Virus record (IMG/VR): IMGVR_UViG_3300042923_001815 | Coordinates: 1-40,731 of that record | From: a virus | Direction: 5' to 3' (one strand) | Length of the DNA: 40,731 nucleotides | In this document: one piece after another, positions 793 to 35,979 of the stretch | Position numbering within the stretch: the first letter of the stretch is position 1 | How the letters are laid out: every line of letters begins with the position of its first letter | Made by a program: the position numbers and the translations under genes | Notes under the pieces: generated by a model | The model's input: the letters and a program-made list of their open reading frames with translations, nothing else | Database searches by the model: none | What the model was told of the DNA's origin: nothing

Positions 793-990
793 CTATAGGC
801 TTTCAAGGATATCAATGATTTCCTCACTCTTTACCTCAGTTACAGCTGGGGTAATATTATTTTTTTGGTCTTTATGCTTAAGATAGAACTTAAGAGCATC
901 TTTCATAAAATTACTTTTATCTCCTTGTTCTGATACTTTATTGAATAGATCTTGCTCCTTTTGTTTAAAGCTAACTAATACCTTTGCCAT
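793..990 (-). CDS. ParR-like DNA-binding partner of the ParM actin
   Basis: A 65-residue basic N-terminal segment (MAKVLVSFKQKEQDLF) followed by a helical region (NFMKDALKFYLKHK) and an acidic tail (VKSEEIIDILESL). A short beta strand plus helix-helix resembles ribbon-helix-helix ParR/CopG-type adaptors, and the acidic C-terminal helix would be the filament-contacting part. The gene overlaps the end of parM by 16 bp, as expected of a translationally coupled parM-parR operon. ParR proteins diverge strongly in sequence, so the call rests on size, fold pattern and position. Confidence 0.6.
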   Translation of the reverse strand: MAKVLVSFKQKEQDLFNKVSEQGDKSNFMKDALKFYLKHKDQKNNITPAVTEVKSEEIIDILESL

Positions 991-1865
991 AAACTCACTC
1001 CTATCCTCTTAAAACCATTTGCATTTGCAAACTGTGCATTTGGTATTATTGTGGTTCCAGGTATTCTCTTATCAAATAACTGTTTCAATACATAAGCACC
1101 GCCACCGGCTAGCGTTACTTTCGCAGTCTTTACCGGATATTTAAGCAGCAGCTCCTTCATTATCTTATCTGTGTGCTCTTCTATAATGTTTCTTATAAAG
1201 CCTATATCCCGCTTCTCTCCATAAATGCTAAGACCATTCTTAAGGATCCTCTCGCCATCCTCTATCTCAAAAAGGGTTTCATACTTGGAATTAATTGCTG
1301 CTACAATCTTTGAAAATAATGTAAGAGTTCCTTCATATATAGTGGAGTGCTGTGTAACTTTCCTTTTGCCGTTAACCACCTGTAAGAGTGCTATAATGAC
1401 TGTACGCCCGCCTATGTCAATATAAATTCTGTCTTCCGTATCATCTGCTGCCGGGAGCGAATAGTGAGCCCCAAGACACTGAGGGAATACCTCTGCTTTG
1501 GTAATGGCGATTGCTCTCTTTTGTTTGTTACTCTCAAATTCAACATATCTGTTACTCAAAAGCATTTGTTTCATTAGATTCTTTTGTGAGCTAAAAAGTC
1601 CTAAAGGTAAGCCGGCAACAACTTGAAAATCATTCTGATTACTCGACTTTGCTAGAGCTTCAATTAGGCATACTCTTGTAAGTTCCTTGTTAATTCTGTT
1701 TAAATCTACTTCTACATTACCTTCTCCTACTGTATAAGCCTTGTTATCGAGAATCAGCATATTTCCTTCCTCTAAAATAGTTTCCTGAGTACTGATTCTC
1801 GAAGGAAAAACAATACCTTCCGAGGTCTTTGTGTAGCCGTAACCTAGGTCTACTCCAATAATCAT
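975..1865 (-). CDS. parM: ParM/Alp-family actin-like partition ATPase
   Basis: A 296-residue actin/Hsp70-fold protein. Visible motifs are phosphate-1 (GVDLGYGYTKT, residues 4-14), phosphate-2 (YIDIGGRTVI, about 148-157), the adenosine motif (TLAGGGAYVL, 251-260), and the C-terminal PNAQFANANGF typical of ParM/Alp proteins. Such filaments push sister plasmids or phage genomes apart when capped by ParR bound to parC. ATG follows an AAAGGGGG ribosome site, and the small ParR-like gene overlaps its 3' end. In a window that also has an integrase, a segregation system suggests an extrachromosomal stage or acquisition from a plasmid. A role in intracellular genome positioning is an alternative. Confidence 0.85.
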   Translation of the reverse strand: MIIGVDLGYGYTKTSEGIVFPSRISTQETILEEGNMLILDNKAYTVGEGNVEVDLNRINKELTRVCLIEALAKSSNQNDFQVVAGLPLGLFSSQKNLMKQMLLSNRYVEFESNKQKRAIAITKAEVFPQCLGAHYSLPAADDTEDRIYIDIGGRTVIIALLQVVNGKRKVTQHSTIYEGTLTLFSKIVAAINSKYETLFEIEDGERILKNGLSIYGEKRDIGFIRNIIEEHTDKIMKELLLKYPVKTAKVTLAGGGAYVLKQLFDKRIPGTTIIPNAQFANANGFKRIGVSLWQRY

Positions 1866-5371: not shown

Positions 5372-5395
5372 TAATAAAAGCGCCTACCAAGGCGC
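5372..5395 (-). terminator. terminator-like hairpin before the lysis cassette
   Basis: On the minus strand, GCGCCT, loop TGGT, AGGCGC, then TTTTATT. It lies between the tail genes and the first holin, so late transcription would have to pass through it. In the plus direction it lies upstream of the stalk-protein gene. Confidence 0.55.
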
Positions 5396-5431
5396 GGAAA
5401 ATAACTGCTGTATATTTATTCCAAAGAGGTA

Positions 5432-5437
5432 TATAAT
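5432..5437 (+). promoter_or_regulatory. possible -10 element of the stalk-protein gene
   Basis: A perfect TATAAT lies 40 bases before the ATG at 5477. No good -35 is seen 16-18 bases upstream, so the promoter is weak, activated or misplaced. Confidence 0.35.
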
Positions 5438-5476
5438 GATATTAAAATCATAAATATATAGTTTGGAGGTTTTTTA

Positions 5477-6094
5477 ATGAGAAAGTATAAACAATTTGTC
5501 ATTGGCTTTCTAGTCGGTGCAATACTGTTTTCAATAGCACCAGTAAGTGCAGCGATAGAAGAGTTTCTTTGTTATAAAGCAGATTACAAGGTTATGGTTA
5601 ATGGATCTGAGTACATCAGTGAAGAGCTTCCTATTCTAAACTACAAAGGTAATACCTATGCTCCCTTTAGAAGCATATTAGAAAAAGCAGGGCTTAATGT
5701 GAATTGGAACGCTGAACTCGGTCAGGCCGAAGTTACTTCCAGTACCACACTCGAACAAATTACTACTGATGGGTTAAACAGTTCAAATTCAACTAAGACA
5801 ATTGAATATGATACTATTACAGGACTTCCTGTGGGTATAGAATATGTTGAAAAGACTTACAACGGCAAAACTTTCAAATTAGCAGTTTATGACGGAGAGT
5901 CTTACATTTCTTCAAGTGATTTAAAAATATTCTATGGAATACAACAAGGTTATCTTGATGTAAAAAACGGTTTAAGGACCTTATACAAAGATGATAAGAC
6001 AGTAGTTATTAATCTAATGAGCAATGATTATTTCAGTGCAAATGGCTATTCATATTATAAAGAATCTTTGTTGATAGATTTAATGGGGGAATAA
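5477..6094 (+). CDS. secreted copper-amine-oxidase N-terminal-type stalk domain protein
   Basis: 205 residues. Signal peptide about 1-26 (RKYK, hydrophobic core, PVSAA). Residues about 37-72 match the stalk domain (Cu_amine_oxidN1) seen in many clostridial surface proteins: VMVNGSEY, LPILNYKGNTYAPFRSILEKAGLNVNWN. The remainder is a beta-rich region of unknown function. It is the only plus-strand gene inside the late region, with its own GGAGG site and terminator, and so has the layout of a lysogenic-conversion gene (moron) expressed from the prophage. It has no catalytic copper oxidase domain and is probably a surface or binding protein. Confidence 0.8.
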   Translation: MRKYKQFVIGFLVGAILFSIAPVSAAIEEFLCYKADYKVMVNGSEYISEELPILNYKGNTYAPFRSILEKAGLNVNWNAELGQAEVTSSTTLEQITTDGLNSSNSTKTIEYDTITGLPVGIEYVEKTYNGKTFKLAVYDGESYISSSDLKIFYGIQQGYLDVKNGLRTLYKDDKTVVINLMSNDYFSANGYSYYKESLLIDLMGE

Positions 6095-6110
6095 AATCCC
6101 CCATTTTTTT
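6083..6110 (+). terminator. terminator of the stalk-protein gene
   Basis: ATGGGGGA, loop ATAAAA, TCCCCCAT, followed by TTTTTTT. It overlaps the stop codon and directly abuts the convergent Tal gene. Confidence 0.9.
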
Positions 6111-7815: not shown

Positions 7816-9000
7816 CTATTGTAAATCAGAATTTAAAGGAACGTCCTTAATTCTTCTACTTTGGATTTTTGATGATAAACTCTTTCCTAACTTTATTGAT
7901 GGAATCTCAACTAAATAATAAGATAGAACCGTTAGCAACATCGTTATTACTAAACTTAAAATTAGTATTAGCCAAGTCGGAATATGTTCATAAAAAAGAA
8001 CCAGCAACGCAAATAGAGGTATGCAATGGTATAAGTATAAGCTATACGAAGCTTTTCCAACAAAATGCACCGGCTTAATTAATAATATTTTTTTTGCACT
8101 TTTGCTTGCTAAAGCTATGATAATAAACATTGCAGATCCAATAGATGTCATAATTGTATTTGGAGGATCAAGTAATCTAACTGGTATTATTTCTATATGC
8201 CGCACCCATGACGGAAATGTATATAATAATACAGCACATATAACAAATATTATTTTAATCATCAAAGTCTTTGACATGTAGAATCTGATTAATAAATCTT
8301 TTTGTTTAGCCAACAATGCTCCAATTACAAAAGTAAACCCATAATATAGACTGTACAGATAGTCTGTCTCTATTCCAATTTTACCCAAAAAGAAGGTTCC
8401 AACGAATCCTAAACCACTCACAAATATACTTGAAATAAGTGAAAATTTATTACTGTACTTCATAACTATTAACATAATAAGCGGAAAAATTAGCGAGATC
8501 CTCATTTCATGAATTAATGACCAATATACTGGATTAAATTTACCGTTATCAAAACTCCCTATCAATAAAAAATGTTGGAATATTGATTGAAACCTTATTG
8601 ATTCGCTCCACCTCCCATTTGCCCAAGAACTCAAAGTGTATATCCCATCATTAAGGAATAACATAGCTGCTATTATTGCAAATATAACTGATACTATATA
8701 AGGTATATATATGCGTGCTATTCTCCTAGTAATATATACTGGATACTCTTGGCTATTATTATTGATGTATGGAAGTGATAAAACAAATCCGCTTAAAACA
8801 AAAAATAGCATAACAGCCTGTGGACCTGAAAAGAACATGTGTAATGGACTATACTTTAATAAGTTCACTAAATAGTAGCCACTTCTACCAAATGTATCTT
8901 CGAAAAATATTGGGAATATTAACAAATAATGATAAATTACTACTGTTATAGCAGCTAATCCTCTTAATGAATCCAACTGATCGTACCTTTGTTTCTCCAT
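7816..9000 (-). CDS. acyltransferase-3 family membrane O-acyltransferase
   Basis: 394 residues from MEKQRYDQLDSL. This start is chosen because GGGAGGA lies 7 bases upstream and the -10 element of its promoter lies within the longer reading frame. Signature residues of the acyltransferase_3/OafA family are the N-terminal LDSLRGLAAITVVIYHY (catalytic His) and RRIARIYIPYI, about ten TM segments, and ASYSLYLYHCIPLF near the C-terminus. It is predicted to O-acetylate a cell-envelope glycan. Temperate phages use such enzymes (for example Oac of Sf6) to change the host surface and block re-infection. Its position next to the spike gene, with its own promoter, fits that role. Confidence 0.9.
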   Translation of the reverse strand: MEKQRYDQLDSLRGLAAITVVIYHYLLIFPIFFEDTFGRSGYYLVNLLKYSPLHMFFSGPQAVMLFFVLSGFVLSLPYINNNSQEYPVYITRRIARIYIPYIVSVIFAIIAAMLFLNDGIYTLSSWANGRWSESIRFQSIFQHFLLIGSFDNGKFNPVYWSLIHEMRISLIFPLIMLIVMKYSNKFSLISSIFVSGLGFVGTFFLGKIGIETDYLYSLYYGFTFVIGALLAKQKDLLIRFYMSKTLMIKIIFVICAVLLYTFPSWVRHIEIIPVRLLDPPNTIMTSIGSAMFIIIALASKSAKKILLIKPVHFVGKASYSLYLYHCIPLFALLVLFYEHIPTWLILILSLVITMLLTVLSYYLVEIPSIKLGKSLSSKIQSRRIKDVPLNSDLQ

Positions 9001-9007
9001 AAAAACT

Positions 9008-9053
9008 TCCTCCCAATTACTAATAGAAACATTATAACACATAATTGGGAGGA
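9008..9053 (-). promoter_or_regulatory. 12-bp inverted repeat covering the acyltransferase ribosome binding site
   Basis: In the sense (minus) strand, TCCTCCCAATTA (9053-9042) pairs perfectly with TAATTGGGAGGA (9019-9008). The second arm contains the Shine-Dalgarno sequence GGGAGGA; the first arm overlaps the promoter spacer and the first base of the -35. An mRNA starting at the predicted start (about 9024) lacks the first arm, while a read-through mRNA carries both. Confidence 0.75.
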
Positions 9054-9058
9054 TTCAA
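9031..9058 (-). promoter_or_regulatory. sigma-A promoter of the acyltransferase gene
   Basis: TTGAAT, a 16-base spacer and TATAAT on the minus strand, predicting a transcript start near 9024, 24 bases before the ATG. It allows expression independent of the late operon. Confidence 0.75.
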
Positions 9059-9108
9059 CATTTTGCGACAACAATCAGAGATACTACTTCTGATTTAAGA
9101 TTGTCTTA

Positions 9109-11139
9109 TCATACAACCAATACAGCCGTCAGTGTTCCGGTATCGCTTACCTGTATTTGATATTTAGTGCCATTAGGAGATATTAAAAGAGGTAAACCAA
9201 AAGGATTCACATTAACACTATCTAATAATATGTCCTTCACTTCTATGTTTGGGTATAATTCAAATCCTTCAATGTAGAATGTTTCTCCTCCTACAGCATT
9301 AAGAATTGGATATATGTGAATTTGAACGTTAACCAATGATGAAAAATCTGCTATAGTTGCAATCATTTCTATTAAATCTAGTTTTGTTATATGAGTAACG
9401 TGGTTGTCTCTCATATTGTATGTTGTGTTGTTACTGTCGTCTAAATTGTAATCGTAAAAATCTTTTAATTTTGCCACTAATGATGTATCTAAATAGTTAA
9501 TTCTGATTTTTGTATAAAGTCTGCTTTGAGTTATGTCAGAAAATGTAGTTGTATCAATATATAGTTTTGTTTTAATCTTTAGCTTCCTATAATCTTTCAA
9601 ATACCTATTTGTAAAATCTAATGTAACATATGCACCTCTAAAAGTGCCTGCACTTGCAGCTACACATTTTATAGCATTTTTCCCATCTAATATAGCCATG
9701 CTACCAGTCGTTCCTGTAGTTTGTACTTTCACTGCATCTGTAAAATCTATTGACTGTGGACTAGCAAAAGATGTTAATTTACTAAAATCGTTCGCTATTA
9801 TAGGTGGAGTTTTCTTTGTCAGCGAATTTAGAGTCTGTACCTGTGTATTTTGATTATGAGTATTGGCAGGTTCAACCATATCTAAGCGTTTGACATTGTT
9901 TGAAATTCTAAACATGTTGTGCTCAACATATCCCGAAATTCCGCTTATGCTCAATATATTTACCTTGTCAAATTCATACTTGTTGTATGTTCCGCTATAT
10001 AATCCGTTAATTATAATGCTATCGACTTCTGTTCCATTTGTTCCAGCTTTGATATTTGCAGTAGTATTGCTCTCAAAATAAGCGTTATTCATTACTATAT
10101 TTCCACCATCTAAAATCATCCCTATAGGATTGTTTTCAATCAATGAACCGTTAAATGATACTGTTGTGGTGCTAATTGGGTCATCAGAACGCACCTTGAA
10201 ACCGTATTCAATACATGCTTCAGCATTGTAAGCAGTGAATGACGTTGCGCCGCCAAAAGCTATCGTACCTTTATTACAGTACCTTGTTTTTAAGTTAATG
10301 AACGAATTTCCCCAACCCCAATTAGTTTCTAAGCCTATATCTAAATCTCGGCAATAAACATTAATAAAATCACAGTTATACGTTGCGTGGTTTACATCTT
10401 TTATTATAGGATCGCCTAATCGGATGCCAATGCCTTTTCTGTTAGTCGAATCACCTAATATCTTAAAATCTGAAAACTTACTATGCCATACATTTGTTAG
10501 GTCTAGCAGTATCTCATCAATGTTGTTAGGTGTGAAGTGTATAATCGACTTTTCATTTCCGTCACCGAATATAGTAAGCCCTGAAACTCGGACTTCGCTT
10601 GTAGTTTTAAATATATTTAGACTAACATCATAGTTGTCAGCTGGAATGCGGAATGCTTTTTTTTGACTAATTGAGTCGGCTATAGCTCTTAGAAATCGTC
10701 CAGAATCATCAATTTCAGGCACTATTAATGGATACTGCGACAATGATATAACTTCAGCCAAATGCGTCTTATGATCCTGCTCGATTTCTTCTAGTCTGTC
10801 ATCTAGGACGCCAAATGCTTTATTTTTTACAGTGCTTGTTCTTGCATTGCTGACTTCCACAGAAAGATTGGCTTTAGTTGCGGCATCATATGCTGCTACA
10901 ATTGCATCAACTTCACTTACTCGCTGATCCTCAGCTTCAACTCTACCTAGCTCATTATTAATCCGCACAACTTCGTTTTCTTCTACAACTGCCATGTTCT
11001 CTTCAAGAGTGGTCTGTCTTTGAGTTGTATTCTCTACTTCTGTATTTATAGTTTCTATACCCGATGCCAGGGCTTCTCTTACGTCCTTACCGAGTATAGC
11101 GTCTCTTATAAGAGCGACTATGCTTGCTATATTAGCCAT
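9109..11139 (-). CDS. tail spike / baseplate protein with right-handed beta-helix
   Basis: 676 residues. Residues 1-140 contain ASIVALIRDAILGKDVREALASGIETIN, a motif at the start of many Firmicute phage baseplate (BppU-like) proteins, followed by a coiled coil. Residues about 145-420 have pectate-lyase-fold character: DSGRFLRAIADSI, IPADNYDVSLN, FGDGNEKSIIHF, then repeated Asn-rich rungs. The C-terminal about 230 residues resemble a carbohydrate-binding beta-sandwich. It probably recognises or degrades a cell-surface glycan during adsorption. It overlaps the Dit stop by one base. Catalytic residues cannot be assigned. Confidence 0.75.
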   Translation of the reverse strand: MANIASIVALIRDAILGKDVREALASGIETINTEVENTTQRQTTLEENMAVVEENEVVRINNELGRVEAEDQRVSEVDAIVAAYDAATKANLSVEVSNARTSTVKNKAFGVLDDRLEEIEQDHKTHLAEVISLSQYPLIVPEIDDSGRFLRAIADSISQKKAFRIPADNYDVSLNIFKTTSEVRVSGLTIFGDGNEKSIIHFTPNNIDEILLDLTNVWHSKFSDFKILGDSTNRKGIGIRLGDPIIKDVNHATYNCDFINVYCRDLDIGLETNWGWGNSFINLKTRYCNKGTIAFGGATSFTAYNAEACIEYGFKVRSDDPISTTTVSFNGSLIENNPIGMILDGGNIVMNNAYFESNTTANIKAGTNGTEVDSIIINGLYSGTYNKYEFDKVNILSISGISGYVEHNMFRISNNVKRLDMVEPANTHNQNTQVQTLNSLTKKTPPIIANDFSKLTSFASPQSIDFTDAVKVQTTGTTGSMAILDGKNAIKCVAASAGTFRGAYVTLDFTNRYLKDYRKLKIKTKLYIDTTTFSDITQSRLYTKIRINYLDTSLVAKLKDFYDYNLDDSNNTTYNMRDNHVTHITKLDLIEMIATIADFSSLVNVQIHIYPILNAVGGETFYIEGFELYPNIEVKDILLDSVNVNPFGLPLLISPNGTKYQIQVSDTGTLTAVLVV

Positions 11140-26506: not shown

Positions 26507-26538
26507 AAAAATAGCAGGTAGAAAGCCCTGCTATTTTT
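26507..26538. terminator. bidirectional 12-bp hairpin between early and late genes
   Basis: AAAAATAGCAGG, an 8-base loop, then CCTGCTATTTTT: a perfect 12-bp stem with T-rich ends on both strands. It terminates the early message and lies within the first transcribed bases of the promoter at 26542-26571. Confidence 0.8.
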
Positions 26539-35944: not shown

Positions 35945-35979
35945 AAGCACCTTGTATTTGGTAGATACAAGGTGCTTTT
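35945..35979 (+). terminator. perfect 13-bp hairpin upstream of the origin region
   Basis: AAGCACCTTGTAT, loop TTGGTAG, ATACAAGGTGCTT, then TT. The T-tract is short in the plus direction and absent in the minus, so it may be a terminator insulating the origin region or another origin element. Confidence 0.5.

Follow-up and report, generated by a model that had tools for sequence, protein, structure and literature searches.

A candidate promoter-dependent translation gate in the leader of a late-region acyltransferase gene of a temperate phage

Introduction

How can an accessory gene that lies among the late genes of a temperate phage, and faces the same way, escape the expression programme of its neighbours? 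The question is raised by the IMG/VR record IMGVR_UViG_3300042923_001815, whose whole stretch of 40,731 nucleotides (hereafter the window) was analysed. It represents a temperate tailed phage with integrase and HTH repressor-like genes at its right end; its late genes occupy the minus strand. Among these resides a gene (7816-9000, minus strand; ATG at 9000-8998, stop codon at 7816) for a surface-modifying enzyme of 394 amino acids that belongs to the Acyl_transf_3 family of acyltransferases (Pfam, 1.2e-35) and matches the O-acetyltransferases of PHROG 3333 (2.6e-41). Its neighbours are a tail-fibre-like gene (11139-9109) on the upstream side and a Prophage_tail gene (7782-6109) on the downstream side. 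The acyltransferase gene is co-directional with the late genes, no terminator-like site separates it from the genes upstream, and no intrinsic terminator (a GC-rich stem followed by a U-run) was found at 8000-11000.

Anatomy of the acyltransferase leader

Read along the minus strand, the leader consists of a predicted −35 box (TTGAAT; 9053-9058), the 5' arm TCCTCCCAATTA (9042-9053), the extended −10 box TGTTATAAT (9031-9039; TATAAT at 9036-9031, preceded by TG), a predicted transcription start near 9024, the 3' arm TAATTGGGAGGA (9008-9019) and the ATG. The two 12-nt arms (9053-9042 and 9019-9008) are 100% complementary, the 5' arm being the exact reverse complement of the 3' arm, and are separated by a 22-nt spacer. 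Two structural elements that the first-pass annotation had named, a perfect 12-bp repeat around the −10 box and the predicted start, and a ribosome site GGGAGGA (the SD) inside the downstream arm, were confirmed, the SD at 9014-9008 and 7 nt before the ATG. One refinement is called for: the upstream arm, which constitutes an anti-SD sequence, does not merely flank the promoter but fills the 16-nt spacer between the −35 box and TATAAT, and the extended −10 box falls into the loop of the predicted hairpin.

The predicted promoter agrees with the consensus at 10 of 12 positions, a quality that also arises by chance in AT-rich DNA. We infer from these elements that it is active, and the spacing of its −35 and −10 boxes places the start of transcription near 9024. 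It is so positioned that its transcript would omit the 5' strand of the helix.

Predicted folds of the long and short leaders

The leader of a read-through RNA folds into a stem of 13 pairs (the 12 pairs of the arms and an inner U-G pair) of about −19 to −21 kcal/mol, with a fold z of about −4.2 to −4.9. Shuffled versions of the short leader, by contrast, fold at least as well as the original. At 37°C, the SD is predicted to be unpaired in about 2% of the read-through RNA and in about 46% of the RNA starting at 9024; at 65°C, the corresponding values are 4% for the long and 63% for the short leader. Opening the region from the SD to the AUG costs 7.8-11.8 kcal/mol on leaders carrying both arms vs. 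about 5 kcal/mol when the RNA starts near 9024. Even the short leader is open only to about one half and forms weak pairs with the coding sequence, which counts against a gate. Since the stop codon of the tail-fibre gene is located 55 nt upstream of the 5' arm, ribosomes terminating there should not open the stem, and translational coupling is therefore unlikely.

We consider it probable that the inverted repeat serves as a promoter-dependent translation gate operating at the level of the RNA. RNA entering from the upstream late genes would carry both arms, fold into the 13-pair hairpin, bury GGGAGGA and give little acyltransferase, whereas RNA initiated at the gene's own sigma-A-type promoter would begin within the loop near 9024, would lack the 5' arm and would be translated. 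The gene's own promoter would then most likely supply most of the enzyme, in the lysogen and/or early in infection, with the gene muted in late read-through. Silencing of the presumed read-through RNA at the step of translation is likely on these folding models. The earlier proposal that read-through RNA hides the SD and own-promoter RNA exposes it thus finds support in the computed folds, in the statistical significance of the repeat, in the precedent set by phage T4 and in the recurrence of the arrangement in other phages.

No terminator is present directly downstream of the acyltransferase gene. A terminator-like hairpin (5380-5395, minus strand), identical in the nearest related phage (L002), separates the tail genes from those for the holin and the endolysin; because it stands ahead of the lysis genes, transcription from the acyltransferase promoter in a lysogen need not reach them. 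Expression specific to lysogeny is plausible, a timing that we infer from the integrase and repressor genes, the shared direction of the late genes and the terminator before the lysis genes, with all of which it is consistent. Beyond the lysis genes, a gene for an actin-like protein (975-1865, minus strand; ALP_N, 2.7e-21) is present, and the same 296-amino-acid protein is found in L002.

Relatives of the phage and of the acyltransferase

The genome of L002 matches the window at 97% identity as far as position 10753, and the match resumes at 95% identity from 7818; L002 differs in the fibre C-terminus and lacks the acyltransferase gene. Hence, the fibre tip and the acyltransferase gene (7818-10753) represent a single replaced segment, which ends at the acyltransferase stop codon. 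The upstream, co-directional tail-fibre-like gene (9109-11139, minus strand) has accordingly kept the N-terminus common to L002 while its C-terminus was replaced. Five relative records, some of which are incomplete, contained no Acyl_transf_3; as an accessory gene that close relatives lack and a temperate phage carries, the acyltransferase gene is a candidate lysogenic-conversion moron.

Searches of IMG/VR, phages, plasmids and genome contigs recovered no close relative of the acyltransferase (the best were about 33-39% identical and had different leaders) and no orthologous leader whose arms could be compared for covariation. The exact repeat had no match elsewhere in IMG/VR, the fibre C-terminus none when used as a search handle, and Rfam none at gathering thresholds. 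The sole find of the host search was a Thermoanaerobacteraceae MAG with a related portal gene, and 398 genomes of the phylum of this MAG contained one acyltransferase match, which is interrupted by an internal stop. Two distant homologues can be compared with respect to their leaders. That of L017 (on a Priestia plasmid; 35% identity) folds over the SD through CTCCT/AGGAG with a z of −3.5, and its AT-rich stem overlaps a −10-like sequence. The homologue L037 (in a prophage; 39% identity) lacks an anti-SD arm in the vicinity of its promoter; its gene has the orientation opposite to that of the adjacent structural genes, from which no read-through would therefore be expected. These are two anecdotes rather than a test of the gate.

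Alternative readings of the inverted repeat

That the fibre tip and the acyltransferase gene arrived together fits a reading without any lysogeny programme, which we regard as quite possible though somewhat doubtful: the hairpin may simply decouple the gene from neighbouring transcription, with a constitutive promoter of its own that provides expression in the lytic cycle as well. The promoter is of the common sigma-A type, and the arm lacks the further copies that an operator would have. Nothing separates this insulating role from the lysogeny-specific one; the two share their molecular mechanism, and our confidence in the one therefore overlaps with that in the other.

It is unlikely that the repeat instead acts at the level of the DNA, as an operator through which a dimeric regulator controls the promoter and for which burial of the SD would be a by-product. 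The arms are symmetric about the −10 box, 34 bp from centre to centre, but further copies of the arm are no more frequent in the window than chance predicts (37 sites with at most three mismatches vs. 44 expected); moreover, the 3' arm is accounted for as the SD, with which a half-site would not be expected to coincide. No more attractive is a role in RNA processing or stability, in which the stem of the read-through RNA is cut (e.g., by RNase III) or protects the end of the fibre mRNA, translational control being secondary. The 13 pairs of the stem would suit such an element, as would a second predicted hairpin, devoid of a U-tract, just upstream (9067-9105, minus strand) in the fold of the intergenic read-through RNA. 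However, a terminator-like tail is absent, and neither perfect complementarity centred on the SD nor an arm inside the promoter spacer would be needed for processing.

Chance expectation and SD burial across the window

That a pyrimidine-rich promoter spacer is complementary to a strong SD by accident, without function, is very improbable, although the cost of opening the initiation region as a whole is no outlier: first-order Markov simulations of the window yielded 0.06 perfect repeats per window (at least 12 bp, a loop of at most 60 and at least five GC per arm), with far fewer expected at one given SD, and the next-best complement to any SD of the window measures 8 nt. The 12-nt complement in the acyltransferase leader is the longest perfect one. 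The real window holds two repeats of this kind, of which only that of the leader coincides with an SD. Among 46 predicted starts, picked by an automatic rule so that individual ones may be wrong, the acyltransferase SD is the most deeply buried (mean unpaired probability of 0.001). Opening its whole initiation region would cost 10.1 kcal/mol in comparison with 7.2 ± 3.0 kcal/mol for the genes of the window; this value is above average without being extreme and hence does not single out the acyltransferase gene, which counts against the translation gate. Besides that of the acyltransferase leader, the window has two perfect inverted repeats of 12-13 bp, at 35945-35977 and 26507-26538; the latter, with its T-rich tail (minus strand), resembles a terminator.

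A comparable leader (5418-5485) precedes the gene at 5477-6094 (plus strand; Cu_amine_oxidN1). There, a −10-like TATAAT is found between TCCAAA/TTTGGA arms that reach into the SD; the hairpin is weaker (fold z of −2.4), and the leader is nearly identical in L002. Since this gene has no co-directional genes upstream, silencing of read-through would not explain its hairpin, which either detracts slightly from the case for the gate or indicates that AT-rich leaders readily acquire short arms of this kind. Another terminator-like hairpin is present at the 3' side of this opposite-strand gene (6082-6105, plus strand).

Comparison with known systems

In the transposons IS10 and IS50, read-through RNA folds back over the start of the transposase gene while RNA from the gene's own promoter does not; unlike in the acyltransferase leader, the arms are there the terminal repeats of the transposon. 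A close parallel is gene e of phage T4, whose longer transcripts form a structure that lowers lysozyme production about 100-fold, while late promoters within the DNA encoding the 5' strand yield translatable RNA (PMC3014915). The same arrangement has been reported for I-TevI, soc and 49 (PMC3014915, PMC2988022). As in e, soc and 49, a longer RNA started upstream would hide the ribosome site of the acyltransferase gene and an internal promoter, here a predicted one, would give a short, translated RNA. A stable helix over the SD can form, and the gene lies inside a co-directional unit, as far as sequence and folding reveal. The systems differ in that T4 is a lytic phage that uses phage late promoters and keeps its early RNA silent, whereas the temperate phage studied here has a host-type promoter and it is the late read-through RNA that is predicted to be silent. 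The mechanism is not new, being established in T4; what we describe is its candidate counterpart in a temperate phage with a host-type promoter.

The SD-burying hairpins of I-TevI, I-TevII, I-TevIII, SegB and MobE of phage Aeh1, each with an internal promoter, insulate an inserted accessory gene from read-through (PMC2988022). The acyltransferase gene resembles them as an accessory gene inserted in another transcription unit with its own predicted promoter inside the hairpin; these genes, however, encode mobile endonucleases and are served by late or middle promoters, and the gene studied here encodes an acyltransferase. Inverted repeats just upstream of phage gene starts are also known as the SAS/ESAS elements of Cluster K mycobacteriophages (PMC3203893). 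The ESAS are imperfect 17-bp repeats, mostly with 4-13-bp spacers, that are located upstream of the SD-like 13-bp SAS and occur in copies throughout the genome (PMC3203893). We rejected an identity of the acyltransferase repeat with ESAS, as it is a single site with perfect 12-bp arms and has the SD within its 3' arm.

Occurrence of the same anatomy elsewhere

We scanned IMG/VR for the pattern TCCTCCC-N(4-24)-TATAAT-N(4-24)-GGGAGGA and, as a control, for its counterpart with the scrambled arm CCTTCCC. The former was present in 19 contigs, some of them duplicates, and the latter in 12. Several of the 19 matches were discarded for being terminator-like, for lying between divergent genes or for having no gene start. 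When a −35 box agreeing in at least five of six positions and a gene start were demanded, a filter set after inspection of the matches and leaving small numbers, four contigs (L019, L020, L022 and L023) were retained and none of the control. Each of the four has a reading frame in the same direction that terminates 15-155 nt upstream, although that of L019 is doubtful since it overlies a longer opposite-strand ORF. The arms measure 12 bp in L019. The gene concerned in L022 encodes a dCMP deaminase and lies downstream of a UvsX/RecA-like gene. In 398 Bacillota genomes, the same scan returned three matches vs. eight for the control, so that the anatomy is not enriched in these chromosomes.

It is conceivable, and we put it forward tentatively, that phages and prophages have repeatedly evolved vegetative promoters whose spacer is complementary to the SD of the gene that they serve, leaving this gene deaf to read-through; among temperate phages, lysogeny genes of late operons would thereby stay untranslated in the lytic cycle. 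With a gate of this kind, a lysogeny gene could reside in a late operon without an insulating terminator ahead of it and be expressed mainly from its own promoter. An anti-SD arm in a promoter spacer is a signature searchable in sequences that could help to find accessory genes under independent control.

The clearest case of the same anatomy outside the window is that of L020 (3213-3265, minus strand), where 14-bp arms surround TATAAT and the −35 box TTGACA stands two bases ahead of the seven-base core of the arm; the gene encodes a radical SAM protein and follows that of an anaerobic RNR activase.
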